DNA of 38,607 bases from an uncultured Gammaproteobacteria bacterium (GTDB lineage Bacteria > Pseudomonadota > Gammaproteobacteria > GCA-002705445 > GCA-002716945), in NCBI GenBank assembly GCA_902605525.1, contig CACLCV010000007.1, positions 1 to 38,607 on the forward strand, read 5' to 3'. The position numbers were made by a program, and so were the translations under genes. The notes under the pieces were generated by a model. It was not told the origin of the DNA. It made no database searches and was given only the letters and a program-made list of their open reading frames with translations. This document shows, piece by piece, positions 147 to 25,614 of the stretch. Each line of letters starts with the position of its first letter. Within the stretch, counting starts at the first letter, position 1.

Positions 147-737
147 ATGAATATTGATAATTTAATAAAAAAGTCATTAGATGTTTCTCTTGACACAATT
201 AGTAAAACGATTAGAAGTGATTCGTTCTCTAAAAATCTTTCAAAAGCCTCTAATTGTCTTATTGATACATATAATAGAAAAGGTAAAGTTATGCTTGCTG
301 GAAATGGGGGTAGTGCTGCTGATGCACAACACATATGTGCAGAATTAGTAGGTAGATTAAATTTTGATAGAGCCCCACTGGCCGCAGTAGCTTTAACTAC
401 TAACACGTCAAATCTAACATGTATTGGAAATGATTATGGATATGATGAGATATTTTCTAGACAATTAAATGCAATTGCAAAGTCTGACGATTCACTTATT
501 GTATATACGACTTCAGGAAATTCAAAAAATATAATATCATTATTGAAAGAAGCTAAAAATAAAGTAAGACATATAATAGCACTTACTGGTAATAATACTG
601 AAAATATTATTAATTATTGCGATGTGATTATTTCAGTAGATTCCGTCTCTACAACTAAAATTCAAGAACTTCATGCGATAGCTGGTCACATACTATGTGA
701 ATGTGTTGAGAAAAACATATTCGAAGCAAATGAATAG
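147..737 (+). CDS. gmhA: D-sedoheptulose-7-phosphate isomerase (SIS domain)
   Basis: GNGGSAADAQHICAELVGRL, GNDYGYDEIFSRQL, TSGNS and KIQELHAIAGH motifs; Glu65, Gln172 and His180 equivalents of E. coli GmhA appear retained. Confidence 0.9.
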   Translation: MNIDNLIKKSLDVSLDTISKTIRSDSFSKNLSKASNCLIDTYNRKGKVMLAGNGGSAADAQHICAELVGRLNFDRAPLAAVALTTNTSNLTCIGNDYGYDEIFSRQLNAIAKSDDSLIVYTTSGNSKNIISLLKEAKNKVRHIIALTGNNTENIINYCDVIISVDSVSTTKIQELHAIAGHILCECVEKNIFEANE

Positions 738-770
738 TCTATATGTCCTCTTCGACTTGAGATAGTTTTT

Positions 771-2171
771 ATGAAAAACTCTAATAAGGCAGTTATATTA
801 TGTGGTGGAGAAGGCCTGAGATTATGGCCACTCTCAAGAAGTAGCTCTCCTAAGCATCTAATATCAATTGATGAGAACAAAACATTTCTTCAAAAAACTA
901 TAGAGAGAATTAACAGACTTTTTAATTTAGATGACATATTAATTGTTACCAACGAAAAACATAAATATGAAATAATTGGCCAGTTGTATGATGAATATAA
1001 AGATAATATTCCTCAAATAATATGTGAGCCAGAGCCTAAAAATACATTAGCCGCAATATCGTATGCTGCAAAAAAAATACACTTATCAGATCCCCACGCC
1101 TGCATAACTGTTTTTCCAGCAGATCATTTCATCGGCAGTGGTGTAGCATTTAAAGATACTATTGTAAGTGCACAAAACGCAGCTAACAATGGATATTTCG
1201 TTACTATAGGTATAAAACCAGATAGGCCGCATACTGGATATGGTTATATAAAAACTGGAGATATTATAAACTCAGATTTAAATGAAGAAATATTTACAGT
1301 ACAACGATTTATTGAAAAACCTAATCTTACTCAAGCAGAAAAATATATTCAGGAAGGATGTTTATGGAATTCAGGTATATTTGTTTTCAACTTAGAAAAG
1401 TTTTTTAGTGACCTAAAATTATTCCAACCACAAATGTCCTCGTTAATTTCTGATTTGAATGAAAATAATAAAAATAAAATCTATTCAAATCTTGATTCAA
1501 TATCTATTGATACAGGTTTAGTAGAAAAAATTTCTAATCTTGCTGTAGTATTTTCAGACATTGAATGGAATGACCTAGGCGAATGGAACTCAATTTATGA
1601 TTTTTCTAAAAAAAATGATAATTCCTTGAAGGGTAATGTACATATTGATGATGTGAGTAAATGCCTTATATGGAATTATAATGAATTAGCAGTTATATCA
1701 GGAATAAAAAATCTGATTATAATTAATACCCCCGATTGCCTTCTAGTAATGAATAGAGAGTCTTCTAACAATCTAAAAAACAATATTGATGCTATTAGGA
1801 AGAAATATCCAAAAAATGTAGAGCAATCTTTAAAAGAGCATAGACCTTGGGGATATTTTAAAATAATAAAAGATTCTCAAGACTATAAGATAAAAAAGAT
1901 TGTTGTTAGACCTAAAGAAAGATTAAGCTTACAAATGCATAAATACAGGAGTGAACACTGGATTGTTCTAAAAGGTTCTGCAACAGTAATAAATAATAAT
2001 AAAGAATTCATACTCAAATGTAGTGAATCTACATTTATTCCGGCACATACACGACATAGGCTCATAAATAATGAAGATGATGATTTGGAAATTATCGAAA
2101 TACAAACGGGATCTTATTTTGGTGAAGATGATATTCAACGAATAGATGACGAATACGACAGGATCAAATGA
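771..2171 (+). CDS. manC: Mannose-1-phosphate guanylyltransferase / mannose-6-phosphate isomerase (bifunctional type)
   Basis: N-terminal CGGEGLRLWPLSRSSSPKH nucleotidyltransferase signature plus C-terminal cupin RPWGYFKII...LSLQMHKYRSEHWIVLKG. Confidence 0.92.
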   Translation: MKNSNKAVILCGGEGLRLWPLSRSSSPKHLISIDENKTFLQKTIERINRLFNLDDILIVTNEKHKYEIIGQLYDEYKDNIPQIICEPEPKNTLAAISYAAKKIHLSDPHACITVFPADHFIGSGVAFKDTIVSAQNAANNGYFVTIGIKPDRPHTGYGYIKTGDIINSDLNEEIFTVQRFIEKPNLTQAEKYIQEGCLWNSGIFVFNLEKFFSDLKLFQPQMSSLISDLNENNKNKIYSNLDSISIDTGLVEKISNLAVVFSDIEWNDLGEWNSIYDFSKKNDNSLKGNVHIDDVSKCLIWNYNELAVISGIKNLIIINTPDCLLVMNRESSNNLKNNIDAIRKKYPKNVEQSLKEHRPWGYFKIIKDSQDYKIKKIVVRPKERLSLQMHKYRSEHWIVLKGSATVINNNKEFILKCSESTFIPAHTRHRLINNEDDDLEIIEIQTGSYFGEDDIQRIDDEYDRIK

Positions 2172-5909: not shown

Positions 5910-8798
5910 ATGATTGCATCTATAACCAGCTTGTTGTTGTTTATTTTATGCTACATCCTTGGGATGGCGCTTGCTCACGTACTGCCTAATCATCTATCAT
6001 CACTCCAAAAGAGACTACTTTCACCAACTATGGGCTTATCTCTTATTGTGATCGTATTTTATTTTATCAACATATTAGGCTATACCATTGATGAAGCTAC
6101 AATTCCTATAACATTTATTTTTTTACTACTATCATCTCTAATATTATTTAAGAATAAAACAGAATTACTCATAAAAGAGAAATATTTCTATTTAACATTT
6201 TTTATAAGCTTTGTATTTGTAAGTTATCCATTTATTTTTTTTGGGTTTGATTGGGTAAGCTATGCAAATGATGATATGGCTAATTATGCTCTAGCTGCAC
6301 AAAGATCTCAAAACTTTGGATTAGAGCATACTCCGAATTTTACATCATTGCTTAATGGTGGCGATCAATCTCATTATTATTGGTTTATGCATGCAGTAAT
6401 GGGCCATAGAGTAGGCAGTGAAATCTTTTTATCATATATGGCTGCTCTCACTGGTTTAAATGCACACCAAATTTTTATGCCAACAATTGTCATGTTGCAC
6501 ATGTCACTTGTAACAGCGATAGGCGCTCTTGTATGTAACAATAATCTTTCTAGAAATATTATTTATCTGTCAATGCTTTTTGTGGCATTGTCACCACTCA
6601 CAATACTTGGAACTATTTATCAACTAATTGCTCAAGTAGGTGGTATTGCCATAATGGTATGTTGTTTGTTACTTATTGTGAGAGATGAACATCACAAGAG
6701 CTACATAAATCTTTTCAAATATAGTATATTGCCATCTCTTATTATATTATCGTTTGTCATCTACTATACTGAGTTACTCCCTTTCTTTGCTGCTGTCTGG
6801 CTCTTGTATGCATTTTATTTGTTAAACAGAGACACGAATGCTTTCGTAGGACTATTAAAGAGTGCATTCATGATATTTCTATTCGGGCTAATTATATTAG
6901 ATGTTGAATTAATTAGATACTTATATTTCCTTATTCATCAAATGTTCGGAGGAATATCCGGTCCAAACTATGATATGATTTTATTTCCTTATTATTTAAT
7001 ACCAAGTGGTATAGCAAACTTTTGGGGTTTGTCACCAATAGCTTACTATCTACCAGAGCCTTATCAAAATATTACAATACTACTAGGTTTGATAAATTTT
7101 TATTTACTAATTAAATATGTAATTCCGAGTCTTAAAAATTCAAACATAATTTTATATTTCTTACTAATAAGCATGCTCGCGGTATTTTTAATACTATTCA
7201 TTAATAATAGTGAATTTGGATTATTCAAACTAGCTATGTATTTACAACCTATATTATTTCTAGCTATTGGTATCTATATTCTAAATAACTATGGTAAATT
7301 TAATAAAATACTTAAACTATATATCACAGTTAATGCTGTCATAATGATTAGTGTATCTTTTTACCATACAGTTAAAGTTTCTTTCAAAGATAATACTTAT
7401 TCAGAATACAAAGTTAATAGTCAATTCAATAACTTAGTAAGTAGCGAAGAATTTAAAACTTGTTCTGATACATATATATCTGATCAACCCAATATTGTTT
7501 TGTCAAAATTTCAAGACTTATATTTAAGGAATTATAAAACATTCTTTCCAAGTAGAATGTTTTATGAACACTTATCAACTATAGGTGAAAAAGCATTAAA
7601 TAATCCGTTTATGAAAGAAAGCTATATCAATTCTGTCAAAAGTTTTAATAATATTGAAAAAAATCTTTTTAATGATAAGTACTATATTTATAGCGATGGT
7701 TTAAGTACATCAAAAAAAAGAGCGTTTGTCTCAGATACCGAGTCTAAGAACAAGTGTTTTACTTCTAGTAGATTTAAAAACAATTTAGAGAATATATCAA
7801 ACTGCTTCAGTAGACGAGAGAACTTAAAAGAACTTATTAATTCTTCATGTTTTATTGTAACAGAACGTAGAAATAATCCATTTAACTCCTATCATATGTC
7901 AAACATAGGAAAATTTTATAGCATCAAGAAAAATGTTTCTAATAAACTTATTTTTATTCATTCTGATTTAGGTCAACATTATTATGGAGGGACAAAAAAT
8001 ATAGCTTATACTCATGACGAGAACGACCCAATGTTTCTTGGAAATAAAATTTCTGCTCTTGGCAACAATTTATTGTTTATGATTGTTAATCCTTCTAAAA
8101 AACCATCTTTTGTTTTTGAAGCTTCATCAACTCTCTTAAGACAGAATGATAATATGCTACCATTGGGTACAGTAAATGGTAAAGAAATGGATATAGTGGG
8201 AAGAGGTTCAGCTAGAGTTTTAATGAATAATGTTCCCTTAAGCCGAATAGATGATTTAGATTATATACATCTTAACTTCCCAAAGCCTGGAAAAAAATTT
8301 CCTATAAATAGAATTGGCTTAATGAAGCTCTATGGAAATAATATTAATCATGATTATAGAGATATAACAGTTTTTTCGAGGGATATATCTCTAGTAGATT
8401 TACCTGATATTGCTACAGAAAAAACACCAAGTTTAATTGAGAATTTTCCTAATGATTTAAAAAATAAAAACTTATTTTACTCTGGTATTTATGAAGATGG
8501 TTGGATATCTGAGGAATCATACTTCTATTTCAATCCATTAAATAAAAGTAAACTTTTGATAGAGGGTGAAATACCATTTATCGATAATAATGATTTTCAA
8601 ACAACACTTATACTTGAGTATGACGATGAAACTTTTTCAAATAAAATAAAAGTTGGAAAGTTTCAAATCAAAATACCCAAAAGTATTAATAGTAATAAAA
8701 TTAAAATTAAATTACTATTCTCTAACACTCAACGATTACCAAATAATGATGAGAGAATAGTAGGTGCATATATAAATAAAATCGGATTTGTGGATTGA
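5910..8798 (+). CDS. Large polytopic membrane protein, probable GT-C type glycosyltransferase with C-terminal soluble domain
   Basis: About 480 residues of hydrophobic TM segments followed by about 460 non-membrane residues; directly upstream of GtrB- and GtrA-like genes. Confidence 0.6.
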   Translation: MIASITSLLLFILCYILGMALAHVLPNHLSSLQKRLLSPTMGLSLIVIVFYFINILGYTIDEATIPITFIFLLLSSLILFKNKTELLIKEKYFYLTFFISFVFVSYPFIFFGFDWVSYANDDMANYALAAQRSQNFGLEHTPNFTSLLNGGDQSHYYWFMHAVMGHRVGSEIFLSYMAALTGLNAHQIFMPTIVMLHMSLVTAIGALVCNNNLSRNIIYLSMLFVALSPLTILGTIYQLIAQVGGIAIMVCCLLLIVRDEHHKSYINLFKYSILPSLIILSFVIYYTELLPFFAAVWLLYAFYLLNRDTNAFVGLLKSAFMIFLFGLIILDVELIRYLYFLIHQMFGGISGPNYDMILFPYYLIPSGIANFWGLSPIAYYLPEPYQNITILLGLINFYLLIKYVIPSLKNSNIILYFLLISMLAVFLILFINNSEFGLFKLAMYLQPILFLAIGIYILNNYGKFNKILKLYITVNAVIMISVSFYHTVKVSFKDNTYSEYKVNSQFNNLVSSEEFKTCSDTYISDQPNIVLSKFQDLYLRNYKTFFPSRMFYEHLSTIGEKALNNPFMKESYINSVKSFNNIEKNLFNDKYYIYSDGLSTSKKRAFVSDTESKNKCFTSSRFKNNLENISNCFSRRENLKELINSSCFIVTERRNNPFNSYHMSNIGKFYSIKKNVSNKLIFIHSDLGQHYYGGTKNIAYTHDENDPMFLGNKISALGNNLLFMIVNPSKKPSFVFEASSTLLRQNDNMLPLGTVNGKEMDIVGRGSARVLMNNVPLSRIDDLDYIHLNFPKPGKKFPINRIGLMKLYGNNINHDYRDITVFSRDISLVDLPDIATEKTPSLIENFPNDLKNKNLFYSGIYEDGWISEESYFYFNPLNKSKLLIEGEIPFIDNNDFQTTLILEYDDETFSNKIKVGKFQIKIPKSINSNKIKIKLLFSNTQRLPNNDERIVGAYINKIGFVD

Positions 8799-8838
8799 TG
8801 CAGAAATATGTATTTCATGTATTATAAAATTAGATAAT

Positions 8839-9771
8839 ATGATATCAGTAATTACGCCAGTATATAATGAAGAGAATAATATTCAGCCGTTTCTGGATAG
8901 ACTTATCCCAGTCTTAGAAAAGTTATCCCCAACATATGAAATTATTTTTTCTATGGATCCGTGTACTGATGAAACAGAAAAGATAATAATGGAAAACATT
9001 AAAAAAAATTCATCCATAAAATTACTTTTGATGTCTAGACGTTTTGGACAACCTGCTGCAACACAAGCTGGTATACTTAATTGTTCAGGAGATTACTGTG
9101 TTGCTATTGATGTAGATCTTCAGGATCCCCCAGAGCTTATAGAGGAAATGTATGAGAAAGTTTTAAATGGATATGATGTTGTTTTAGCTAAAAGAAAATC
9201 AAGAAAAGGTGAAACGTTCATAAAAAGAATAATTGCTAGGACGGGTTATTATCTTATAAAGAAACTTAGTGATGTAGAAATTCCTGAAAATATAGGAGAT
9301 TATCGAATGATATCTCGAAGAGTAATTGATCAATTAAGAAACTTACAGGAAAAACATGGATTTTTAAGAGGTCTTGTTGCTTATGTTGGTTTTAAACAAA
9401 CATATGTTATCTATGATCGTGATGCAAGATTTGCTGACAGCGGAAAATATAGCAGACTCACGGGGTCTATAAAAATAGGCCTCAATGGTTTAATCGGTTT
9501 TAGTACTAAACCATTATTTATAATGTCAGTATTAGGCTTAATACTTGCATCTTTCAGTTTTCTGATTGGGATGTTTTATTTTTTATCAAAAATATTTGGA
9601 GCAGATATTACTCCTGGCCTTCCTACTACAGTAATTCTAATCACATTCTTCTCTGGCGTTCAACTTCTAGGCTTGGGACTAATAGGCGAATATATTGGCA
9701 GAATCTATGATGAGGTCAAAAGAAGGCCTATGTATATAATAGATAAAAAGATTGGATTTAAGAAAGATTAG
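8839..9771 (+). CDS. gtrB: Polyprenyl-phosphate glycosyltransferase (GtrB/DPM1-like GT2)
   Basis: MISVITPVYNEENNIQPFLDRL, SRRFGQPAATQAGIL, DVDLQDPPELI and two C-terminal TM helices; ATG at 8839 fits family N-termini better than the 8788 start. Confidence 0.85.
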   Translation: MISVITPVYNEENNIQPFLDRLIPVLEKLSPTYEIIFSMDPCTDETEKIIMENIKKNSSIKLLLMSRRFGQPAATQAGILNCSGDYCVAIDVDLQDPPELIEEMYEKVLNGYDVVLAKRKSRKGETFIKRIIARTGYYLIKKLSDVEIPENIGDYRMISRRVIDQLRNLQEKHGFLRGLVAYVGFKQTYVIYDRDARFADSGKYSRLTGSIKIGLNGLIGFSTKPLFIMSVLGLILASFSFLIGMFYFLSKIFGADITPGLPTTVILITFFSGVQLLGLGLIGEYIGRIYDEVKRRPMYIIDKKIGFKKD

Positions 9772-9790: not shown

Positions 9791-10201
9791 ATGTTAAGTA
9801 TTTATAATTATATAAAAAAAAATTTTTATAGTATTTTTAAGTTTGGGCTAGTCGGAATTCTCACAACAATTATTTATTTGTTATTTATCTTTATTTTCTA
9901 TGATATTTTTAAGTTAGACTATCGAATCTCTATCTCTTTGGCATACATTATAGGTGTCTTTATGCAATTTATAAGTAATCAATTATTTACATTTAAGATC
10001 AAGAAAATTAGTTTTGTTCATATAAAGAAATATTCTTTACTGCCCATAATAAATTATATTCATACGCTATTAACTAGCTTAATAATTGTAGGTCAACTCA
10101 GCTATACGCCTTATATATCTGCTATTATATCAACTGTGTTATCGGCAATTATAAGTTTCCTTTACTTCAAGCATTACGTATTTGAAGAAGCGAGTAATTA
10201 A
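9791..10201 (+). CDS. gtrA: GtrA family membrane protein (putative lipid-linked sugar flippase)
   Basis: Four TM segments, FKFGLVGILTTIIYL start and QFISNQLFTFK motif; follows the GtrB-like gene. Confidence 0.8.
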   Translation: MLSIYNYIKKNFYSIFKFGLVGILTTIIYLLFIFIFYDIFKLDYRISISLAYIIGVFMQFISNQLFTFKIKKISFVHIKKYSLLPIINYIHTLLTSLIIVGQLSYTPYISAIISTVLSAIISFLYFKHYVFEEASN

Positions 10202-10204: not shown

Positions 10205-11197
10205 GTGAATAAAATAGGAATATCTATTATAGGTACAGGTAACATAGGTTATAAAAGAGCTAAGAGCCTTCCAAAATCACTTGAAATAATTAGTTGCTTT
10301 GATATAGATAAAAAGCAAAGAGATCAGTTTGCGATTGATTTCAATTGCAAAGCATGCAGTAGCATAAAAGAGTTACTGAATAACAAGGAAGTCTCTGCGG
10401 TGATAGTGTCAACTCTACATGACACTCTATCTGAGATTACAATACAATCAATCATAGCAGGTAAACATGTATTAGTTGAAAAACCTGCTGGCTTAAATTC
10501 TAACGAAATTCAGAATATTATCTATCATCAAAAGAAATCGCAAAAAGTTGTTTGTGTAGGTTTTAATCACAGATATCATCCCTCAATTATGAAGGCAAGA
10601 GAAATCATATCTGAAGGTAAGCTCGGAGAAATAATGTTTATAAGAGGAAGATACGGTCATGGAGGTAGGGTAGGATATGATAAAGAATGGCGATCTTTTC
10701 CAGAAAAGGGCGGAGGAGAACTACTCGATCAAGGACCTCACCTCATTGATATCTCAAGATTAATCTTAGGTGACTTTGCTAATACCACTGGTTTTATGAA
10801 TACATTTTTTTGGGACATGAGTGTTGATGATAATGCATTTATGATTCTTAAAACAAAAGAAGAAAAATGCGCATTCCTTCATGTTAGCTGCACAGAATGG
10901 AAAAATATGTTTTCACTTGAAATATATGGAAAAATAGGCAAGTTAGACATTAAAGGATTGGGAGGAAGTTATGGAGTCGAGGAGATTATACATTATGAAA
11001 TGCAACCTGAAATGGGGCCTCCTCCTTCGAAAAAATGGATATTTGATGAAAACGATAAATCATGGTTTAAGGAGTTAGATGATTTTGTGTATAATATTCA
11101 AAATGATAATTTGGAATCAGCGACATTATATGATGCACTTGCTGTACATAAAGTAATAGAGGATCTAAAAAAAAATACCAAATATGATAATTACTAG
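10205..11197 (+). CDS. Gfo/Idh/MocA family oxidoreductase
   Basis: GTG start; IGISIIGTGNIGYKRA Rossmann motif, EKPAG, GGGELLDQGPHLID. Confidence 0.87.
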   Translation: MNKIGISIIGTGNIGYKRAKSLPKSLEIISCFDIDKKQRDQFAIDFNCKACSSIKELLNNKEVSAVIVSTLHDTLSEITIQSIIAGKHVLVEKPAGLNSNEIQNIIYHQKKSQKVVCVGFNHRYHPSIMKAREIISEGKLGEIMFIRGRYGHGGRVGYDKEWRSFPEKGGGELLDQGPHLIDISRLILGDFANTTGFMNTFFWDMSVDDNAFMILKTKEEKCAFLHVSCTEWKNMFSLEIYGKIGKLDIKGLGGSYGVEEIIHYEMQPEMGPPPSKKWIFDENDKSWFKELDDFVYNIQNDNLESATLYDALAVHKVIEDLKKNTKYDNY

Positions 11198-12167
11198 AAG
11201 CCCATTAAGAGTTTCACTAGGTGGCGGCGGGACGGATCTAGCCTCATATTATGAAAAATATGAAGGATTTCTCATAGCAGGCGCAATCAATAAATATGTT
11301 TATGTTAATGTTATGAAGCCATTTCAGGAAGGTATATACCTAAAGTATTCTGAATTGGAGCATGTCAATAAACCAGAGCAAATAAAACATAAAATAATTC
11401 GGGAGACTTTTCTTCATCTTGAATTGACACAGCCAAGAATAGAGCTAACAACTCTTGCAGATATTCCATCTGGAACAGGTCTAGGATCTTCTGGTAGCTT
11501 TACGACCGCACTGATTAGGTCGTTATATGCTTTCAACCAAAAACATATCACGCAGAATGATATCGCAAGATTGGCGTGTGAAATTGAAATTAATAGACTT
11601 AAAGAGCCCATTGGTAAACAAGATCAATATATCTCTGCTTATGGTGGATTGACTGCATTTACATTTCATAAAAATGGCAATGTTTCTGCCAAACCTATTA
11701 ATCTTTCCCCTGAATGTATACATGAACTTGAGGACAACCTATTACTCTTTTTTACTGGGTACTCCAGATCAGCAAGCTCAATATTAAAAGAACAGAATCA
11801 AAAATCTCATATAAATGATAAATTTATGATTGATAGTCTTCATTCTACAAAAGAACTAGGCTATCAAAGTCAAGAAGCATTAGAATCAGAGAACATTGAA
11901 TTATTCGGTAAAATCATGCACGAACATTGGAAGAAAAAACAAATAAGGACAAAAGCAATGTCCAATCAAAATATCAGTAAATGGTATGATCAAGCAATTA
12001 AAAATGGCGCCATTGGTGGAAAACTTGTGGGTGCAGGGGGCGGTGGTTTTTTAATGTTTATGGCTCATGATAAATCAAAACTTAGGTCATGCATGAAATC
12101 AAATGGGCTTGAAGAAGTTAGATTTGCTTTTGACTATCAGGGAACTAAAGTTATCTTCGATTCATAA
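11184..12167 (+). CDS. hddA: GHMP kinase, D-glycero-alpha-D-manno-heptose-7-phosphate kinase-like
   Basis: RSPLRVSLGGGGTDLASYY, DIPSGTGLGSSGSFTTAL, GAIGGKLVGAGGGGFLMF. Confidence 0.88.
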   Translation: MIITRSPLRVSLGGGGTDLASYYEKYEGFLIAGAINKYVYVNVMKPFQEGIYLKYSELEHVNKPEQIKHKIIRETFLHLELTQPRIELTTLADIPSGTGLGSSGSFTTALIRSLYAFNQKHITQNDIARLACEIEINRLKEPIGKQDQYISAYGGLTAFTFHKNGNVSAKPINLSPECIHELEDNLLLFFTGYSRSASSILKEQNQKSHINDKFMIDSLHSTKELGYQSQEALESENIELFGKIMHEHWKKKQIRTKAMSNQNISKWYDQAIKNGAIGGKLVGAGGGGFLMFMAHDKSKLRSCMKSNGLEEVRFAFDYQGTKVIFDS

Positions 12168-12880: not shown

Positions 12881-13819
12881 CCACTTATTTTCACTCAAAT
12901 ATTTAACAGTTTTTCGCACTCCATTCTCAATAGTGCATTCCGGCCTCCATCCTGTTTTACTGATTTTTGTTACATCAAGGTGAATGAATGGATTATCACC
13001 AACCCAGCCTCTCTTTTGTCCTGAATAAGTTAGCTCTGGATTCAAATTAAGACATTCTGTAATCCATTTTGCAGATTCATTAATCTCACAGTAACCATCA
13101 TATCCAAGATTAATGATATTATTTTTTTCATTATAGAAATTTAAAGCTTGGTCAATGGCATTTAAGCAATCATTTATATATAAGTAAGATTTCTTCTGAT
13201 GTCCATCACCTAAAATATGCAGTTGATCTGGGTTGCTCTGTAGTTGTTTAAAAAAATCATATATATGCCCATGCTGATATCTTTCACCTATGATTGATAC
13301 AAATCTAAATATCCAAGATTGCATATCGTAAGCATTACAATAAGACGTTATTAAACCTTCGCACGCTATCTTTGATGTAGCATAAAGCGAGGTTTGTATT
13401 GGAAACCCTGCATCTTCTGGAGTAGGAATAGTCTTATGTTCTCCGTAGACTGACCCCGTAGAGGAGAATATGATTTTTTTAACTTCGTTATGCTTCATCG
13501 CTTCAAGCACATTTGATGTAACTAAGATATTCTGATCTATATCTTTTTTAGGATGATTAAAGCCAAATCTTACATCAGCGTTTGCTGAGAGATGGTAAAC
13601 TATCGAAATATCTTTAAAATATTTATGTATTTTATTATAGTTTAATAGATCCTCATTTATAAATGTAAACTGTTTATTATCTATATTATTTTCTAGAAAT
13701 TTTTCTCTACCTGTTGATAAATTATCGATGCCAATGACGGAAAAGTTTCTATTTAATAGGTAGTCAGTTATATGACTTCCAATAAAACCCGCGCATCCAG
13801 TAACTAGACAATTTTGCAT
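12869..13819 (-). CDS. NAD-dependent epimerase/dehydratase (extended SDR)
   Basis: LVTGCAGFIGSHITDYLL, SSTGSVYGE, LYATSK (YxxxK), RGWVGDNP C-terminal motif. Confidence 0.87.
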   Translation of the reverse strand: MQNCLVTGCAGFIGSHITDYLLNRNFSVIGIDNLSTGREKFLENNIDNKQFTFINEDLLNYNKIHKYFKDISIVYHLSANADVRFGFNHPKKDIDQNILVTSNVLEAMKHNEVKKIIFSSTGSVYGEHKTIPTPEDAGFPIQTSLYATSKIACEGLITSYCNAYDMQSWIFRFVSIIGERYQHGHIYDFFKQLQSNPDQLHILGDGHQKKSYLYINDCLNAIDQALNFYNEKNNIINLGYDGYCEINESAKWITECLNLNPELTYSGQKRGWVGDNPFIHLDVTKISKTGWRPECTIENGVRKTVKYLSENKWLFE

Positions 13820-14781
13820 TTTATTTCCTCATAAAGTTCCATTCCAGAAATTGCACGTGATGTATTAGCTTCTCTTCCTGAAATAATTTCTTTTAGCTCA
13901 TCTGTAAAGCTATTTTCGCATGCGGATTTTGATAAAAGTTGTTCATTATCGCTTTGTGATTTACCGTTTAGCCAACTCCATCTCTCACCATAATAATAAA
14001 CTTGATCACCATAGGTCCTTCCTCTTCCTGAGATCCTTGCATAAGCATCTTTTCCGTTTATTGAAATCTCGAACATACTTTTCCATCTAACACCTGATAT
14101 GTTAAGAAGAACCAGTGTTTTATTTATTTTCAACAAAATCTTTACTTCCTCTTCTATACCTGTATTCCAAAATCCATCCCAAGAGCAAACACTGATAATT
14201 TGAATATCTGAATCAAATAAAAAATATAATAAATCTATCATGTGTATTCCGGGATCTAATAAAACACCACCTCCACTAACATTAGGGTCTAATTTCCATG
14301 ATTTATCCATATTTGGTGAATTTCCATGCCCTATAGACATTTCTACCGATATTAGCTCACCAAATTTGTCTTCAGATAGATCTGACTTAAGGCGCTTTAT
14401 CGCTTCAAAATATTCATAATTAAATCCAACATGTATTTTAGATTTTTTTTGATGACCAAGAATCTCTCTCATTTCACTTATATTTCTACCTAGTGGTTTT
14501 TCTATTAATATATCGATATTTTTATTCAGAAAAAGACATGCATAATCTTTAGAAAGATTATGGGGTGTGGAAATAATAACAAGATCATATTCTCTTTTTG
14601 TAAGATCTTTTTTATTATTAAGAAATTTTATTTTGTTGCTTATCTCAAAGTCCTCATGATTCTTATCAATATTGGGATCATAAACATCACAAGTAAAATT
14701 CTTATTTGAATATATTTTAATAAGCGATTTTAGCCTTTCTTTACCTATTAACCCATATCCTATAATCAAAAAATTATTCAT
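13804..14781 (-). CDS. Gfo/Idh/MocA family oxidoreductase
   Basis: Internal start MNNFLIIGYGLIGKERL fits the Rossmann N-terminus; EKPLG, GGGVLLDPGIHMID. Confidence 0.85.
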   Translation of the reverse strand: MNNFLIIGYGLIGKERLKSLIKIYSNKNFTCDVYDPNIDKNHEDFEISNKIKFLNNKKDLTKREYDLVIISTPHNLSKDYACLFLNKNIDILIEKPLGRNISEMREILGHQKKSKIHVGFNYEYFEAIKRLKSDLSEDKFGELISVEMSIGHGNSPNMDKSWKLDPNVSGGGVLLDPGIHMIDLLYFLFDSDIQIISVCSWDGFWNTGIEEEVKILLKINKTLVLLNISGVRWKSMFEISINGKDAYARISGRGRTYGDQVYYYGERWSWLNGKSQSDNEQLLSKSACENSFTDELKEIISGREANTSRAISGMELYEEIKCKIV

Positions 14782-15538
14782 TTCTTCGAAGCATCCATCT
14801 ATTTTTGTCAATATTACTAGAATTATATTCAAAGATATTATCTCTCACATGAATGAACTTTCCAGATAAATATGAAATCTCCTCATGTATTAATTTTAGT
14901 ATAAAATCTCTAGTCTCAGTTATTGGTACAGTTGTTTTAATATCAGCGCCAGACTTTTTGACCTTTTCAAGCATTTTCGTTTCCATAGCTCCTGGCGCTA
15001 CTGCGAGGCATGTAATATCACCATATTTTAAAAGCTCAAGATGTAAGTTTTCAGCTGCTCTTACAGTAGCTGTTTTAGAGAGAGAATAACTTGAAAATTT
15101 AGGATAACCATATGCAGCACCACCACCTGAGAAAAAAATAATTTTTGCATGTTTACTACTTTTTATTTGTGGAAGAAAACTTTTTATCACATTGAGGTTT
15201 CCTATGATATTTGTCTCGAAGACATTTTTCCATAGATTTAAATTTGTTTTCTCAATACCCCCTTCTTGCCCTAGTGTTGCGGCACAAAGAATAAAACCAA
15301 TTGGCTCATTATTTAATTTAAGACTTTGTATCTTTTTAGTAGTTTCATTTAAATCACTTATATCAACCTTAATCGCGTATGAATTAGGACTCTTAGGCTT
15401 TATCAAATCGTATGTATCAAAGACATTATCAGATTTAGATAAACAAATAATTTTATAATTTTGAGATGCTTTAATTGCTATTTCTCGACCAAGACCATCG
15501 CCACTCCCAGTAATCACTAAAGTTTTAATTTGCTTCAT
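14774..15538 (-). CDS. Short-chain dehydrogenase/reductase
   Basis: LVITGSGDGLGREIA, CAATLG, YSLSKTA (YxxxK), VAPGAMET. Confidence 0.87.
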   Translation of the reverse strand: MKQIKTLVITGSGDGLGREIAIKASQNYKIICLSKSDNVFDTYDLIKPKSPNSYAIKVDISDLNETTKKIQSLKLNNEPIGFILCAATLGQEGGIEKTNLNLWKNVFETNIIGNLNVIKSFLPQIKSSKHAKIIFFSGGGAAYGYPKFSSYSLSKTATVRAAENLHLELLKYGDITCLAVAPGAMETKMLEKVKKSGADIKTTVPITETRDFILKLIHEEISYLSGKFIHVRDNIFEYNSSNIDKNRWMLRRNE

Positions 15539-16604
15539 TTAACCTTGCTACCATAAAAATATCCGACCCCTCTAAATTAGAAACTAAGCAATCAATTGAA
15601 AAGTTATTAAATCCAACAAACAGATGGCTAGATGTTATAGTGAATTCAATACTAAATCCATGCCTAGATAGTAAATATGCTAGGCTTAATGGTGAAAAAT
15701 AATTTAAATGTTCATTTTTGAGCGAATAAAATTTCGATCTAAAGCACTTATGTTCAAAACTACATAGATTAGGTGTCCTTACCACTATCAACCCTTTATG
15801 TGCTACATATTTTTTTGTCTCTGCAATAAAAGAGTCAAGATCCTTCACATGCTCTATCACATCGAGACATGTAACTATGTCATATTTTTGATTTTTGTTA
15901 TACTGCCAGATATCTCCCTCGAAATTCGTAAAACCAAATAATTTAGCGCACATTTCATTCGCATATCTACTTATTTCAAGGCCGTAGTGATTTAGACCCA
16001 TTCTTTGTGCAGAGTATCTTAAAAAACCATAGCCTGCGCCAATATCAAAAATGCAAGGCTTAGGAGCTAAAGAATATTTTTTTATCGATGATAAAATTCT
16101 ATCTGATTTTTCAATTCTCCATTCTGATTGCTTAAGATAATTACCGTACCCAAGACGCTCTATATCCCCTTCAAAATACTCTTCATCATAAGCTATAGGA
16201 GAGGCTTTTTTGTATCTATTAGTATAAAGAATTCCATGATTAAGATAGCTATTGCCTAGAATATGGAATCTATTGTCCAAGTAATCAAAAGAAGTAAAAT
16301 GACGATCAACTTTAGCACCAGAAAATATGCTGTGATGGGGGAATGATTTTACAGATACCTGTTTGCTTACTTTAAAATATAACTGAGTTCTCTTGCAAAT
16401 TAATTCATATTTTTCCTGTTGATGCATCTTATTCCATCTAGTCCCAGAAATATTCTCAAATATATACTCTATCCATTCTCGTCCTTGTATTTCTTCTAGA
16501 TTTAATAACCTTAAAATCCCAGTTTCCCAGTGTTGCCTTGTATCTGCAAAAACAATAGAATTATTTTTTAAATATTTGATATATTTTTTAGTTAGTTTCC
16601 ACAT
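15525..16604 (-). CDS. Class I SAM-dependent methyltransferase
   Basis: CIFDIGAGYGFLRYSAQ motif I, YDIVTCLDVIEHV, LIVVRTPN; about 180-aa N-terminal region unassigned. Confidence 0.82.
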   Translation of the reverse strand: MWKLTKKYIKYLKNNSIVFADTRQHWETGILRLLNLEEIQGREWIEYIFENISGTRWNKMHQQEKYELICKRTQLYFKVSKQVSVKSFPHHSIFSGAKVDRHFTSFDYLDNRFHILGNSYLNHGILYTNRYKKASPIAYDEEYFEGDIERLGYGNYLKQSEWRIEKSDRILSSIKKYSLAPKPCIFDIGAGYGFLRYSAQRMGLNHYGLEISRYANEMCAKLFGFTNFEGDIWQYNKNQKYDIVTCLDVIEHVKDLDSFIAETKKYVAHKGLIVVRTPNLCSFEHKCFRSKFYSLKNEHLNYFSPLSLAYLLSRHGFSIEFTITSSHLFVGFNNFSIDCLVSNLEGSDIFMVARLNEAN

Positions 16605-17757
16605 TCTTTCTATTTATAAAAATAAGGTTGTACAATAAAGAGTAAACAAATATAGCAGTTCCCAGTGCCATAAGATTAATTCCTGTTACGGCATAATATG
16701 ACTCATAACCAAGCTTATTTGGAAGGGTATAGCTATTTTCATGAAATACTGAAAAGATGGGCGATAGGAAGAATATAGAGACAATCATTAGAGTAATAAA
16801 AATACAAATAGAGTAATTAAATTGCAAAAACAATAGTGGCTTATTAATAGTTACCTCATAGAATAATTTTGATACTATTCCCAACATAAGTAACTGAAAA
16901 CCTACTTGAAATATCAAAGATAGAAACATCATGCTATGAAGAGATAGTTCATATTTCATTATCGTCGCGGGTCCATCATATAAAATCACTAAGAGAGGTA
17001 AGCTTAAAAATATTAAAACGTACCCTAAGGGAATAAATATCTGGCTAATCCCCCATGTAAGTATCGTTTGAATAGTAATCCAGCCAGCATGCCATGGTGC
17101 CCAAAAGCCTATTCTTTTTAGATTACTAATCCGTCCTTGTTTATCCTTATAAAATGATATAGGTATCTCAGTAGTCTTAAGCTTAAGATGTTTTGCCTTA
17201 ATAATCATTTCTGAAGCATATTGCCATGATTTCGAGACTAGGTTCATGCGCTTGAGCGCTCGAGTAGTGACAGCTCTCATCCCACAATGGATATCTTTAA
17301 CTGGGGTTTGAAATACTAGATTAAGAAGCCAGCTCGTAGCAGGAGAACCAAAGTATTGATGTGATTTTGGCATAGCGCCATGTTCAATGTAACCTTTAAA
17401 TCTATTACCAACTATGAATTCATATCCCTCTTTAAGCTTATTATAGAACATTTCAATATTGGAAAAGTCATATGTTAGATCAGCATCTCCTAAAATTACA
17501 TATTGTGATTTGATATAAGGAATAGCTGCTTTATATGCATTACCTAAACCCTTTTGAGGCACGATTACTACTTCGACATTTTTTTCTCTTGCTATTTTCG
17601 AAGTATTATCTGATGAACTATCTGCAATAATTATCTGACCATTGAGATTAAGCTTTTTAAACCCAATTCTACATGAGTCAATAAATTTAGAAATTGTGAT
17701 TTCTTCATTTAGGGTAGGAACTAAAACTGTGATATCAAAATTATCCATTTTTAGCAT
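16588..17757 (-). CDS. GT2 polyprenyl-phosphate glycosyltransferase-like protein with C-terminal TM helices
   Basis: ITVLVPTLNEEITISKFI, ILGDADLTYDF, VGNRF; four or more C-terminal hydrophobic segments. Confidence 0.82.
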   Translation of the reverse strand: MLKMDNFDITVLVPTLNEEITISKFIDSCRIGFKKLNLNGQIIIADSSSDNTSKIAREKNVEVVIVPQKGLGNAYKAAIPYIKSQYVILGDADLTYDFSNIEMFYNKLKEGYEFIVGNRFKGYIEHGAMPKSHQYFGSPATSWLLNLVFQTPVKDIHCGMRAVTTRALKRMNLVSKSWQYASEMIIKAKHLKLKTTEIPISFYKDKQGRISNLKRIGFWAPWHAGWITIQTILTWGISQIFIPLGYVLIFLSLPLLVILYDGPATIMKYELSLHSMMFLSLIFQVGFQLLMLGIVSKLFYEVTINKPLLFLQFNYSICIFITLMIVSIFFLSPIFSVFHENSYTLPNKLGYESYYAVTGINLMALGTAIFVYSLLYNLIFINRKNVETN

Positions 17758-18697
17758 CTACAAGTATTTCTCTTAAAGATTTTTTAATAGCATCAATAGA
17801 AGAATATCGATTCTCCCATTTATATCTAGTTCTTATCTTATTCGAGTTGAATTTAATTTTAGGTACATCGCCGTTCCATCCACGATCACCTCCTGAATAA
17901 TTGATTACAGTATCCACAGTTCCATTGACTTCTAATGCAATTTTAGCAATTTCTTTAACAGTTATTGAATCATTTGTAGTTATATTATATACGTCATAAA
18001 GTGTATTAACGTCAGAGTCAATGACTGAGAATATTCCTTCGATTATATCGTCAATATGAATATATGATTTACATTGATTACCATCACCAAGTACTTCTAA
18101 TTTATTCTTATTCTTATTTAATTTATGGATAAAATCATATCCAACGCCATGCGTTTGTCTTTTACCTACAACATTTGCAAATCTAAATACACGTGCATAG
18201 ATATCAAACATATGACTGTAGGCACTAATTAGTGCCTCAGATGCAATTTTATTTGCTGCATATGGAGATATTGGAACTAGAGGGCCATAATTTTCGTCAA
18301 AATCTTCATCTTTATCTCCATAAACACCGCTTCCTGAGGTGTAAATTATTTTTTTTATATTGTTTTTTCTTATGACTTCTAGCAAGTTATTTGTTAAAAC
18401 CGTTCCTTGATGAAAATCAAGTGTAGGATTGGACTCGGCCTTTGAGATATCCGGGTTAGCCGCTAAATGAAAAACAATATCAATTTCGCTTGTCAATCGT
18501 TTCCCTAGCTCATCAATATCAGTTATGTCTGCTTCATAGACTTCTAATCTAGCATCCTTAATAAAATCTAAGTTATGACGAGTATTTGAAGAAAAATTAT
18601 CATAGATAATTACTTTTTTAGTTTCTTCGTCCATTAGAAGTCTCTCTGAGATATGTGAACCGATAAAACCAGCTCCGCCTGTTAAAAAATATTTCAT
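17741..18697 (-). CDS. NAD-dependent epimerase/dehydratase (extended SDR)
   Basis: YFLTGGAGFIGSHISERLL, SGSGVYGD, PYAANK (YxxxK), GGDRGWNGDVP. Confidence 0.87.
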   Translation of the reverse strand: MKYFLTGGAGFIGSHISERLLMDEETKKVIIYDNFSSNTRHNLDFIKDARLEVYEADITDIDELGKRLTSEIDIVFHLAANPDISKAESNPTLDFHQGTVLTNNLLEVIRKNNIKKIIYTSGSGVYGDKDEDFDENYGPLVPISPYAANKIASEALISAYSHMFDIYARVFRFANVVGKRQTHGVGYDFIHKLNKNKNKLEVLGDGNQCKSYIHIDDIIEGIFSVIDSDVNTLYDVYNITTNDSITVKEIAKIALEVNGTVDTVINYSGGDRGWNGDVPKIKFNSNKIRTRYKWENRYSSIDAIKKSLREILVDAKNG

Positions 18698-20361: not shown

Positions 20362-20365
20362 TGTT

Positions 20366-20403: not shown

Positions 20404-21033
20404 ATGAACGAATTATCAAAAAATACAGATAAAGCAAGTAACTTTTCAAAGTCATATCTCGATGAAGCTATAGAAGTAATTAGTTTAATTGACATAGATG
20501 CAATAGAAAAAATTGTTAGCTTGATAAAACAAACTCGGACAAAACTTGGTAGAATATTTTTCCTAGGAGTAGGTGGCAGCGCAGGTAATTGTTCACATGC
20601 CGTAAATGATTTCAGGAAAATTATTGAAGTTGAATCTTATGCGCCCACTGATAATGTTTCTGAATTAACTGCTAGAACAAACGATGAGGGATGGGCTAAC
20701 GTTTTCGTTCCATGGCTACGTCTTAGTAAATTATCAAAAAATGACATGGTGTTTATCTTCTCTGTAGGAGGAGGCAACTTAGAAAAGAATATTAGCCCAA
20801 ATCTTGTCGAGGCTCTAAAGTTTTCATCACAAATAGGCGCTAAGATCTGTGGCATAGTTGGTAAAGACGGAGGATATACTGCTAAAGTAGCGGATGCATG
20901 TATTATTGTTCCGACGGTAAATAAAGACAATATCACACCTCATTCAGAAGCTTTTCAGGCTGTGATATGGCACCTAATAGTCTCTCACCCAAGCTTGAAA
21001 GTAAATCAAACGAAATGGGAATCAACAAAATAA
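20404..21033 (+). CDS. SIS-domain sugar-phosphate isomerase, divergent GmhA-like
   Basis: FFLGVGGSAGNCSHAVNDFRK, SVGGGNLEKN, HSEAFQAVIWH; GmhA-like length and layout. Confidence 0.82.
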   Translation: MNELSKNTDKASNFSKSYLDEAIEVISLIDIDAIEKIVSLIKQTRTKLGRIFFLGVGGSAGNCSHAVNDFRKIIEVESYAPTDNVSELTARTNDEGWANVFVPWLRLSKLSKNDMVFIFSVGGGNLEKNISPNLVEALKFSSQIGAKICGIVGKDGGYTAKVADACIIVPTVNKDNITPHSEAFQAVIWHLIVSHPSLKVNQTKWESTK

Positions 21034-21039
21034 ATCTGA

Positions 21040-22449
21040 ATGCATGATTTTGACTATGTCTTAGTCGGATCTGGACCTACGGCAACAGCTTTCCTATTAA
21101 GTGATAATTATAAATTAAAATCATCTAAGTTTTGTATCCTTGATGTTGCCTTCGATTATAAAAATAAATTTAATCAAGAGCCAAGTAAAAAAAAATTATA
21201 TGAACTTCATGATATTCACAATAAAACATATTATGGAGACTCGTTTGCAACTAAGGAAATACCTAGATACGAATTTCCATCTAATCTAGAAATTTCTAAC
21301 TCTTATGCTTATGGCGGACTATCAAATGTTTGGGGTGCTGCATGTTCCAGCTATAATTTTGATGATTTGGAAATGATGGGATTAAAAATAAACAAAAAAT
21401 ATTATAATTTAGTAAACAGAGTTCTAAGCATTGAGCAATTTAATTTTCCAAAAAAATCTAAGATGTTAAATCTTTATAGTAGGTTAGAGAGGAACAATAA
21501 TGAAAATATCTATGTAGAACCTTCATTGTTAGCAGTTGACTTCAAGAGACTAGAATCTGGTTGCTCGGGTCTATATGGTTCATGTAATGGTGCGATATAT
21601 AATTCGAGAGAAACATTCATGAATCACAAAGGTGAAGCTACTATTAGTCCTAATACATTACTAGATAAGATTATCTACGAATCATCAGAAAATATAATTT
21701 TAGAAACTATAAACACACATAGTGGAGAGAAATCAAAAATTAAAACGAAAAAACTTATATTAGGATGTGGTGCAATTAATACATCAAAACTCTTACTTAA
21801 ATCATTTAAAGATGTTGAATCTATACATATCAGAGATTCACAAGGTTTTAGAATACCATTGATTGATATTACTCTTGCTGGTCTTTTTGGGAAATCATAT
21901 GATGAAACAGAATTAACAAATTTCTATTTAAAAACCAAAGTTGATGAATTTCTTGTTCATGGCCAGCTTTATTTTTCTGGTGAGTATGTAAAAAATCAAA
22001 TCTCAAAACAATATCATATTCCTAAAATTCTTTTATCTAATCTTTTAAATATAATGTATATATATCAAGGATATCTCCCATCTAAATATTCATCAATTGG
22101 AAAACTCATGATTAGAAATAATAAATTTGATTTTAAGACAGTTAAAAAATACGATAAAAAATTCCTACATAAACTTGTGAATTATAATAATCACTTTTTT
22201 AGAAAATCTAAATTATTTCAAATGAACGTTATGAGGGATATATCAGATATATTTAGCGTCTATCATTTTGGTGCAATTTCACTTCTATCAAATGATAAAA
22301 AAATAGAGCTTAGTGCTTCTGATGGATCAATCTCAGGCTATGAAGACATACATGTAATTGATGCTTCAATATTAAAGAATTTACCTAGCGGACCTATCAC
22401 ATCAATTGTTATGGCGAATGCTGTCAACATCTCTGATAAGATTCTTTAA
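21040..22449 (+). CDS. FAD-dependent oxidoreductase, GMC-like
   Basis: FDYVLVGSGPTATAFLL dinucleotide-binding motif, GGLSNVWGAACS, LILGCGAINTSKLLL, C-terminal VIDASILKNLPSGPITSIVMANA. Confidence 0.72.
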   Translation: MHDFDYVLVGSGPTATAFLLSDNYKLKSSKFCILDVAFDYKNKFNQEPSKKKLYELHDIHNKTYYGDSFATKEIPRYEFPSNLEISNSYAYGGLSNVWGAACSSYNFDDLEMMGLKINKKYYNLVNRVLSIEQFNFPKKSKMLNLYSRLERNNNENIYVEPSLLAVDFKRLESGCSGLYGSCNGAIYNSRETFMNHKGEATISPNTLLDKIIYESSENIILETINTHSGEKSKIKTKKLILGCGAINTSKLLLKSFKDVESIHIRDSQGFRIPLIDITLAGLFGKSYDETELTNFYLKTKVDEFLVHGQLYFSGEYVKNQISKQYHIPKILLSNLLNIMYIYQGYLPSKYSSIGKLMIRNNKFDFKTVKKYDKKFLHKLVNYNNHFFRKSKLFQMNVMRDISDIFSVYHFGAISLLSNDKKIELSASDGSISGYEDIHVIDASILKNLPSGPITSIVMANAVNISDKIL

Positions 22450-23072: not shown

Positions 23073-23090
23073 ATATTCTGTTATTATAAT

Positions 23091-23105: not shown

Positions 23106-23109
23106 CCAG

Positions 23110-23649
23110 ATGAATAAGTGTGTTTTTTTAGATAGAGATGGAATCATTAACGAATCCATCATCATAAATAACAAACCTGTTGCGCCTAATAATCTCTCAG
23201 AGCTTAGAATAATTAAAGGTATAAAAGAACAACTTATTAAGCTTAAAGAATTTAAATATTATCTTATAGTAATTACTAATCAGCCGGATGTAGCCAGAAA
23301 TCTAACTAGTATGAGTTCTGTAAAAGAAATTAATAATAGTATTCTGAATCAACTTCCAATAGATGATATTTATGTGTGCTTCCATGATGACTCAGATAAC
23401 TGTGACTGTAGAAAACCTAAACCTGGTAATATTATTAAAGCTAGCGATGATTATTCAATAGATCTTTCAGCAAGCTACATGATAGGAGATAGATGGAAAG
23501 ATGTAGAGGCAGGAATCAATGCTGGAACAAGAACTATTTTTGTTGACTATAATTATGATGAACTTAAGCCTAAAAACTGTACGTACTATACAAAATCACC
23601 TGTGGAAGCCCTAGAAATAGTATTAAAAGAAACATATGAAAATAACTAA
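23110..23649 (+). CDS. gmhB: HAD-IIIA phosphatase, D-glycero-D-manno-heptose 1,7-bisphosphate 7-phosphatase-like
   Basis: Start at MNKCVFLDRDGIINES (the 22930 ORF extends too far upstream); FLDRDG, TNQPD, zinc-loop CFHDDSDNCDCRKPKPG, MIGDRWKDVEAG. Confidence 0.87.
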   Translation: MNKCVFLDRDGIINESIIINNKPVAPNNLSELRIIKGIKEQLIKLKEFKYYLIVITNQPDVARNLTSMSSVKEINNSILNQLPIDDIYVCFHDDSDNCDCRKPKPGNIIKASDDYSIDLSASYMIGDRWKDVEAGINAGTRTIFVDYNYDELKPKNCTYYTKSPVEALEIVLKETYENN

Positions 23650-24844
23650 CACTTCCAATAATATTCTTATATTTTCAACTTTTTTGTTTCTCATTTTTAA
23701 TTTTATAAATCGTGAAATTGCTAATTTTATACTATTGCTAGTACTACTACTTTCATTTTATCCTTTTCCAAAAGTTAACTTAATTTTAAATTATGATCAT
23801 TTTAAATTTGTCTATGCATCTATTTTATTTGTTTTAAGTATTATTATTATTAATAATTTATCAAATGATAATATTAGCGAAATTGATAATCATAGTAGAT
23901 ATTTACTTCTATTGCCTATTCTCTTAGCACTATCAAAATACAAAATTTCCTCAGATTTTTTCTTCATGACAGTTCTAGCTTCTGTATATTTTTCTTTTTT
24001 TTTATATATATATGATAATACTTTTCTCAACTATGAAGGTAGGTATTTAGGCTCTTCATCAACATCAATAACTTTCGCAAACTTAATCATAACTTTTAAT
24101 ATTTTAATTCTTTTAGAAATTATCGATAAAGCTGATGATGAGTCGACAGATATGGCTTTCTACATCTCTAGATACGCAGGTATTATATTGTCATTCTATT
24201 TATGGTCAGAAACGGAAACAAGAGGATCGTTGATTGGATATATTTTTGGACTAATTTGTATAATCATTTTGTACACTAGAAAAAGCTCAAAGTATATCCT
24301 TTTCGCTATATTGTTCCTAGTTCCCATAATAATGTCGTCGGGAGTTTATGATAGAATTAAAAACACATATTCCTCAATACAATCTATTGATACATCTAAA
24401 ATGGAAGATTCTATTGAATTTAATACATCTGAAAATGAAAGGATTTATTATTTTAAATTTGCAATCGAAAAAATACTTAAACATCCTCTAAGTGGCATTG
24501 GTTCAGGTAATTATGAAATGACCATGAGGAATGATCTTAAAAAAGAAGGCATTGCGATTAACGCAAGAAGTCATGCGCATAATGATTTTCTGGATATAGG
24601 ATCAAAATTTGGATTAATACCATTAGTATTTTTTATTACAATGCTAATGTATTTATTCTACTCTTTTGCAAAACATAGGAACAATCTATTTGCACGTGTT
24701 GGCCTAATTGTTTTATTTTCAAATATTGGTTTTATGTTAACGCAATCTCAATTTGCACATCATCAAGCTACTGTAATCTTTATAATTTTGATGTACATTT
24801 GTTTGTCACAAATCAGAAGACACTTTGAAATCAATAGTATATAA
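23636..24844 (+). CDS. O-antigen ligase/polymerase family membrane protein (WaaL/Wzy-like)
   Basis: About 10-12 TM segments; ETRGSLIGY and HPLSGIGSGNYE...HAHNDFLDIGSKFGL motif typical of the Wzy_C/O-antigen ligase family. Confidence 0.82.
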   Translation: MKITNTSNNILIFSTFLFLIFNFINREIANFILLLVLLLSFYPFPKVNLILNYDHFKFVYASILFVLSIIIINNLSNDNISEIDNHSRYLLLLPILLALSKYKISSDFFFMTVLASVYFSFFLYIYDNTFLNYEGRYLGSSSTSITFANLIITFNILILLEIIDKADDESTDMAFYISRYAGIILSFYLWSETETRGSLIGYIFGLICIIILYTRKSSKYILFAILFLVPIIMSSGVYDRIKNTYSSIQSIDTSKMEDSIEFNTSENERIYYFKFAIEKILKHPLSGIGSGNYEMTMRNDLKKEGIAINARSHAHNDFLDIGSKFGLIPLVFFITMLMYLFYSFAKHRNNLFARVGLIVLFSNIGFMLTQSQFAHHQATVIFIILMYICLSQIRRHFEINSI

Positions 24845-24897
24845 TTCAAATGTAGTATAAGTAATCTTATTTATAAGGAATCTGCGGAGGGTAGAAC

Positions 24898-25614
24898 GTG
24901 CAAAATATTCCCAATCTCAAAGTCAAGATATTTTCAGATGGTGCTGATAAAGCAAAAATGCTAGAAATGTACAGAAAGCCTTTTATCAAAGGACTAACAA
25001 CAAATCCGACGTTAATGAAAAAAGCAGGCATTAAAGACTATAAAAGCTTTTGTTTGGATATTCTCAAAGAAATCAAAGATAAGCCATTATCATTTGAAGT
25101 ATTCTCAGATGATTTTCATGAAATAATTACGCAGGCACGTGAAATAGCTAGTTGGGGTGAAAATGTCTATGTGAAAATTCCCATCATGAATACAAAAAAG
25201 GAAATGTGTTATCAATATGTTGAAAAACTTGTAAATGAAAATATAAAAGTCAATGTGACGGCTATAATGACATTAGATCAAGTAGAGAAAATAAATAAAG
25301 TTTTATCAAAAGATGTTCCATCATATGTTTCCATTTTTGCCGGAAGGATTGCTGATACTGGTGTTGATCCGGTTCATATTATTAGAGAATCCATTAATAT
25401 TCTAAAAACGAATACTCAGGCAGAGATAATATGGGCTAGTCCCAGAGAATTACTGAATATTTTCCAAGCTAGCGAAATTGGTTGTCATATAATTACAGTT
25501 ACTCCAGACATAATAAATAAGATGAAGCTTATATCATATGATCTTAATGAGTACTCACTTGATACAGTAAAAATGTTTTACGATGATGCTGTTAGTGCTG
25601 GATATAAAATTTGA
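24898..25614 (+). CDS. Transaldolase / fructose-6-phosphate aldolase family protein
   Basis: GTG start preceded by [28 protein letters not shown] (Schiff-base Lys position), [20 protein letters not shown]. Confidence 0.87.

Follow-up and report, generated by a model that had tools for sequence, protein, structure and literature searches.

A widespread bacterial nucleotide-sugar cassette with its own transaldolase: a candidate octose pathway in a gammaproteobacterial surface-polysaccharide locus

Octoses built by a transaldolase have so far been described in the open literature as a peculiarity of the lincosamide antibiotics. In the lincosamide pathway (Lmb; Ccb for celesticetin), LmbR forms an octulose from fructose 6-phosphate (F6P) or sedoheptulose 7-phosphate (S7P) and ribose 5-phosphate (R5P) (PMC5854111), and the octose genes LmbR/N/P/K/O/M/L/Z supply a transaldolase, an SIS isomerase, a kinase, a phosphatase, a nucleotidyltransferase, an epimerase, a dehydrogenase and an NAD(P)-dependent oxidoreductase (PMC4351081, PMC12945683). 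The other close system is the Gmh/Hdd pathway, in which isomerase, 1-kinase, phosphatase and nucleotidyltransferase (GmhA-HddA-GmhB-HddC) yield GDP-D-glycero-alpha-D-manno-heptose. Genes of most of these enzyme classes occur together in a 38,607-nucleotide stretch of DNA (the window; contig CACLCV010000007.1, assembly GCA_902605525.1) from an uncultured Gammaproteobacteria bacterium, with a GC content of about 30% and a source genome of 753 kb that is 73% complete. The original prediction saw here a locus that makes its own ketose phosphate, activates it and tailors it to a sugar of more than six carbons. Conserved synteny, co-evolution and transaldolase dosage bear out the dedicated, locus-borne pathway, which very probably exists as such. 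Its product is, on balance and with some reserve, taken to be an NDP-octose (C8) of the lincosamide type that serves a surface polysaccharide.

All the enzymes named in the original prediction could be confirmed as open reading frames (ORFs) with the assigned folds. Eight of the encoded proteins belong to a cassette that recurs in other bacteria. Its core consists of a TIGR02134-type transaldolase (24898..25614, + strand; TAL_FSA 146 bits), a SIS-domain protein predicted to be a ketose/aldose-phosphate isomerase distinct from GmhA and hereafter called SIS2 (20404..21033, +), an HddA-related GHMP sugar-1-kinase (11184..12167, +), a GmhB-like HAD-IIIA sugar bisphosphate phosphatase (23110..23649, +; the automatically called ORF begins at 22930) and a sugar-1-phosphate nucleotidyltransferase of the NTP_transferase type (12167..12880, +). 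Three putative tailoring enzymes complete the set: a Gfo/Idh/MocA oxidoreductase (10205..11197, +), an extended short-chain dehydrogenase/reductase (SDR) with the epimerase-type site STGSVYG...YATSK (12869..13819, -) and a classical SDR, a distant member of the cassette's ketoreductase family (14774..15538, -; 122 bits to the cSDR7 profile). The Gfo/Idh, kinase and nucleotidyltransferase genes stand in the standard cassette order, the two SDR genes lie on the opposite strand, and the SIS2, phosphatase and transaldolase genes come last, interspersed with others. Around them lies a surface-polysaccharide locus that includes ManC (771), a Wzt-type ATPase with an ABC-2 transporter (2168-4164), GMD (25611), GDP-fucose synthase (26671) and a number of glycosyltransferases; the genes that come after it, FTHFS among them, are unrelated.

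The conservation of this gene set was analyzed in public genomes with SIS2 as the only bait. At least 555 relatives were found and 80 (60-74% identical), from 13 phyla, were kept; gene counts refer to 43 well-flanked loci. Near SIS2, these loci encode the transaldolase (40), the phosphatase (40), the kinase (38) and the nucleotidyltransferase (37), together with the tailoring families Gfo/Idh (32), extended SDR (32), classical SDR (26) and a protein resembling UDP-glucose 6-dehydrogenase (UGD; 19). The full order SDR–UGD-like–classical SDR–Gfo/Idh–kinase–nucleotidyltransferase–SIS–HAD–transaldolase is identical in 12 of the 43. Among 399 Pseudomonadota genomes, SIS2 is present in eight and a TIGR02134 transaldolase in six, with both in five and either alone in three and one, respectively (Fisher p = 4e-9); the two genes are close together in four of the five, and the window is the fifth. 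The three genomes with SIS2 alone carry a different transaldolase on another contig, which in one adjoins a HAD and a UGD-like gene and in a second has a HAD fragment nearby. Pairwise distances correlate between the families with r values from 0.32 (transaldolase-SDR) through 0.74 (transaldolase-SIS2) to 0.83 (transaldolase-HAD), and none of 500 permutations reached such values. The grouping of transaldolase, SIS2, phosphatase, kinase and nucleotidyltransferase is thus far beyond chance.

Several variants of the cassette were encountered. It is carried by a Rhizobium jaguaris plasmid and by plasmid 3 of Lawsonia intracellularis, which in strain PHE/MN1-00 (L112) holds the whole cassette in two blocks under annotations such as galactokinase, transaldolase and SIS. 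Split cassettes were seen in L124 (G163), L127 (G215) and L259 (G242), with SIS2 and an aldolase-group transaldolase plus HAD on different contigs; in L124, the contig with the transaldolase also has a UGD-like gene, whose protein is without the Cys (ISGGNLERD). A second cassette type (L048, L058, L102, L149) combines the five core genes with a different extended SDR and usually a GT2 glycosyltransferase and GtrA; three of its members (L048, L058 and L149) lack the Gfo/Idh, UGD-like and classical SDR genes. The window mixes parts of both types, since it also has the pair of the second type: a second, type II extended SDR (17741..18697, -; 48-51% identity to the second SDRs of L031, L048, L058 and L102) and, as in L048, L058 and L102, its GT2 partner (16588..17757, -; 641 bits to its own profile). 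The bradyrhizose pathway was considered as a relative and rejected: in photosynthetic Bradyrhizobium (L161-L164), the operon presumed to make the O-antigen, located by a published primer (PMC4743980), is without a transaldolase and has only distant SIS, nucleotidyltransferase and SDR genes. No paper describing the cassette was found in the open literature.

The transaldolase itself scores 315.7 bits, above the TIGR02134 cut-off of 281.95, and is the only one found in the source genome. A transaldolase is encoded in none of eight same-genus genomes and in two of 24 same-family genomes, one of which (G020) holds another copy of the cassette, and transketolase was found in all 25 genomes searched. 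Six other carriers of the cassette were tested; in four of them (Bradyrhizobium, Halieaceae, Methyloglobulus and Rhizobium tubonense), the locus copy of about 130 bits is accompanied by an ordinary transaldolase of about 300 bits, and those of Legionella and Pelagibacter have the locus copy only. The original prediction had been made to hinge on the transaldolase not being a housekeeping enzyme, and it holds on this point: relatives do without a transaldolase, most tested carriers keep a second one and transketolase is universal among the relatives. The catalytic residues are retained, and 72 of 74 sequences have the transaldolase-type Phe at FAGR instead of the aldolase-type Tyr, so that an identity as fructose-6-phosphate aldolase is unsupported.

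In the transaldolase tree, which leaves several early branches open and whose bootstrap had not fully converged, the window copy groups with a Halieaceae sequence within the cassette clade. The cassette enzyme shares with the TIGR02134 transaldolases of Staphylococcus and its relatives a score above that family's cut-off, but the lactobacillus and Treponema enzymes form a separate, supported clade and lie, where annotated, in phosphotransferase-system or ABC sugar-utilisation loci. A transaldolase on a Streptomyces plasmid has transposases and a lactone oxidase as neighbours and no cassette genes. In three relatives (G001:C8, G002:C4 and G007:C20), split transketolase-like halves and a GmhA-like SIS gene were noticed some 10 kb apart, so that their glycan loci may house another, transketolase-based sugar pathway.

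SIS2 is 59-73% identical to 42 cassette relatives. Its predicted structure has the GmhA fold (pLDDT 85, TM 0.72 to 2x3y), but STSGNS, the phosphate loop of GmhA, is replaced by SVGGG in 84 of 84 sequences, and altered residues (H, D, E, H) stand at what we take to be the positions of the GmhA metal site. Against a GmhA model SIS2 reaches 45 bits, under the cut-off of 209. The other SIS protein of the window (147..737, +; TIGR00441 168 bits), which the original prediction counted among the pathway members, has to be removed from the set: it adjoins ManC, is 60-62% identical to proteins of same-genus genomes that encode no transaldolase and is judged to be a separate GmhA-like protein outside the cassette. 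The kinase shares 53-64% identity with most of its cassette counterparts and 41% with one, and matches the HddA-like structures 3k85/4n3o best, but scores 183 bits against the HddA model NF049969 (cut-off 600). The nucleotidyltransferase is 32-43% identical to its cassette relatives, and its best match in the Protein Data Bank is HddC (6jq8), but it remains at 87 bits against the HddC model NF049965 (cut-off 300). The phosphatase scores 117.7 bits with TIGR01656 (scanned from 23092) and 255 bits with the cassette HAD profile. For GDP as the carrier, part of the original prediction, the signs are divided: the window enzyme leans to HddC, and thus to GDP, but its family lies far under the HddC cut-off, another cassette member scores better as MurU-like (UTP as substrate, UDP product) and T4-like phages use an enzyme of the RfaE/CTP_transf type.

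These resemblances make a dedicated heptose (C7) pathway the first alternative to be weighed. The transaldolase would only boost the supply of S7P from F6P and erythrose 4-phosphate, SIS2 would be a divergent GmhA, and divergent HddA, GmhB and HddC would deliver an NDP-heptose for tailoring at C4/C6. The reaction order of the Gmh/Hdd pathway and its kinase, nucleotidyltransferase, HAD and SIS families are indeed those of the cassette, with HddA and HddC as the closest relatives of kinase and window nucleotidyltransferase, a GmhB-like phosphatase and a GmhA-like fold in SIS2. However, all four window proteins fall under the curated GmhA/HddA/HddC/GmhB cut-offs, the locus already has its separate GmhA-like protein at 147, and the cassette adds a dedicated transaldolase and tailoring enzymes, the known Hdd route being without a transaldolase. 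Moreover, every relative has a transketolase and with it a source of S7P, so that a heptose would not need a transaldolase for it. The heptose pathway is therefore regarded as unlikely; even if it were correct, no described product was found in the open literature for a nine-gene nucleotide-sugar cassette as widespread as this one.

The tailoring enzymes give a further hint at the length of the sugar. In the UGD-like family, Thr stands where UDP-glucose 6-dehydrogenase has its catalytic Cys (GGTL.RD instead of the GG.C motif) in 27 of 28 members, the remaining one being cut short; Lys, Asn and Asp are kept, and true UGDs encoded on the same contigs retain the Cys. An enzyme without this Cys should stop before the second oxidation, to the acid, as would suit a substrate oxidised at a secondary alcohol. 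This fits C6 of a heptose or an octose and not of a hexose; the heptose C6 alcohol would be served equally. The Gfo/Idh protein is 37-53% identical to cassette members (EKP motif in 53 of 55) and the extended SDR 56-57%; the dehydratase-type D-E motif occurs in none of 48 cassette SDRs. The classical SDR shares the SGGGA...Y...K motif with its family at about 30% identity. A chain of more than six carbons, as in the original prediction, thus gains support only indirectly, from the dedicated transaldolase present despite transketolase, the non-GmhA isomerase and the Cys-less UGD-like enzyme.

On the octose reading, the following route is conceivable, in which every substrate, the nucleotide, the number of carbons and the sequence of the tailoring steps are what we infer. 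The transaldolase would transfer a C3 unit from F6P or S7P to R5P, giving octulose 8-phosphate, which SIS2 would isomerise to octose 8-phosphate. The GHMP kinase would phosphorylate C1, the HAD enzyme would remove the 8-phosphate and the nucleotidyltransferase would form the NDP-octose, most likely with GDP. The epimerase-type SDR, the Gfo/Idh enzyme and the ketoreductase-type SDR could then tailor the sugar, with oxidation at C6 by the Cys-less UGD-like enzyme in most complete cassettes. In the window, this missing oxidase might be replaced by a GMC-like FAD oxidoreductase encoded between SIS2 and HAD (21040..22449, +), which has an N-terminal GSGPTA, no Pfam match and weak GMC C-terminal matches (E about 1e-4), and is window-specific in that it has no close relative among the fetched cassette loci. 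The rest of the source genome yielded only an ordinary, Cys-containing UGD as a candidate for the UGD-like gene. Since the C8 hydroxyl of an octose could be lost once C6 has become a ketone, an 8-deoxy-octose is a natural guess.

The comparison with the lincosamide pathway concerns how the cassette may work, and membership is not claimed. All eight enzyme classes listed for lincosamides have members in the cassette, those of tailoring being candidate counterparts of LmbM, LmbL and LmbZ, and the run Z, P, O in the published table (PMC4351081; gene functions from PMC12945683) matches Gfo/Idh, kinase and nucleotidyltransferase in the window. The cassette differs by its extra classical, ketoreductase-type SDR and by its location in a polysaccharide locus, plasmid or phage instead of an antibiotic cluster. 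Several observations weigh against the octose. The likeness is one of enzyme class and gene order only, and the aminotransferase LmbS has no counterpart in the cassette, no aminotransferase being present among its recurrent neighbour families or in the window. The cassette genes of the window are spread over 15 kb amid other genes, its nucleotidyltransferase and classical SDR have diverged from the cassette families, and the UGD-like gene is absent from the window as well as from 24 of the 43 loci. Finally, no octose made by a transaldolase route was found in the open literature on bacterial polysaccharides.

Another acceptor is also conceivable: with arabinose 5-phosphate, a hexose 6-phosphate (leading to C9) or glyceraldehyde 3-phosphate (leading to an isomeric hexulose), the sugar would be neither a lincosamide octose isomer nor a heptose. 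The choice of acceptor is not readable from sequence, the phosphate loop of SIS2 is unlike that of GmhA and the tailoring genes differ between loci. Yet the one pathway so far described with this set of enzymes uses R5P (PMC5854111) and independent signs of a C9 or C6 sugar are lacking, so that such a product appears rather improbable. That a housekeeping pentose-phosphate transaldolase lies by chance in a glycan island otherwise devoted to ordinary hexose chemistry (GDP-mannose, GDP-fucose), as its being the sole copy in an incomplete genome and the flanking ManC, GMD and GDP-fucose synthase genes might suggest, is hardly credible for a gene that relatives survive without, that four of six other carriers supplement with a housekeeping copy and that is syntenic and co-evolving with SIS2, phosphatase, kinase and nucleotidyltransferase across phyla.

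Uncultured T4-like phages carry a version of their own. A scan of viral contigs (IMG/VR) revealed 193 with SIS2, and the 80 that were kept (L168-L247) encode the transaldolase in 73 cases, the phosphatase in 69 and the kinase in 64, with T4-type neighbours in 63. The commonest order is glutaredoxin, RfaE/CTP_transf-like nucleotidyltransferase, SIS2, HAD, transaldolase, glycosyltransferase, kinase and RNase H, and a T4-type portal protein was identified in seven of 15 such records, six of full length. The T4-type transaldolases form a single clade of 57. A close SIS2 was found in none of the phage isolates among 50,697 records. That the nucleotidyltransferase is swapped and the other four genes are kept supports their reading as one pathway. 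Examples are L213:4968-9847 and L203:5598-9841; a few contigs also have Gfo/Idh and a classical SDR (L246). The phage sugar might be destined for DNA, the capsid or the host surface.

A broader proposal, which may prove right or wrong with about equal chances, is that a lincosamide-like octose pathway (possibly 8-deoxy) is a common, horizontally moving unit of glycan loci in at least a dozen phyla, and that uncultured T4-like phages have a version of it in which a glycosyltransferase is added and the nucleotidyltransferase is another. The Cys-less dehydrogenase and the Gfo/Idh enzyme would possibly act at C6/C8 and the ketoreductase would possibly replace the aminotransferase. If so, octose chemistry would be a common mobile part of bacterial surface glycans and phage genomes, with genes that go by names such as transaldolase, galactokinase or SIS protein and so escape notice. 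Sugars of a kind that composition analysis easily overlooks could then be traced directly through their genes, the lincosamide sugar genes would have a likely ancestor or relative in the cassette, and the presence of sugar-phosphate genes in T4-like phages would receive an explanation that can be tested.

Further genes of the window concern the possible fate of the sugar. Directly before the Gfo/Idh-kinase-nucleotidyltransferase run, in the window as in several loci, lie genes for a GtrB/DPM1-like GT2 (8788..9771, +; a homologue adjoins the cassette in 15 of the 43 loci) and a GtrA-like flippase (9791..10201, +; PF04138; in nine of 43). They recall Gtr-type glycan modification by GtrA, GtrB and a membrane transferase, and the pair may load the sugar onto undecaprenyl phosphate and flip it. 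The third component is a guess, for which large membrane ORFs without a Pfam match (5910-8798 or 18694-20361) could be considered. Outside the common cassette are a second, accessory Gfo/Idh oxidoreductase (13804..14832, -; 166 bits to the GFO profile) and a methyltransferase (15525..16604, -) for possible sugar O-methylation. Beside the GMC-like protein, between SIS2 and HAD, a 208-residue protein without a family match is encoded (22446-23072), for which the fetched cassette loci again gave no close relative. The membrane protein at 5910-8798 has 962 residues and, like a small lipoprotein-like MORN-repeat protein (5509-5874), is encoded among the polysaccharide genes.

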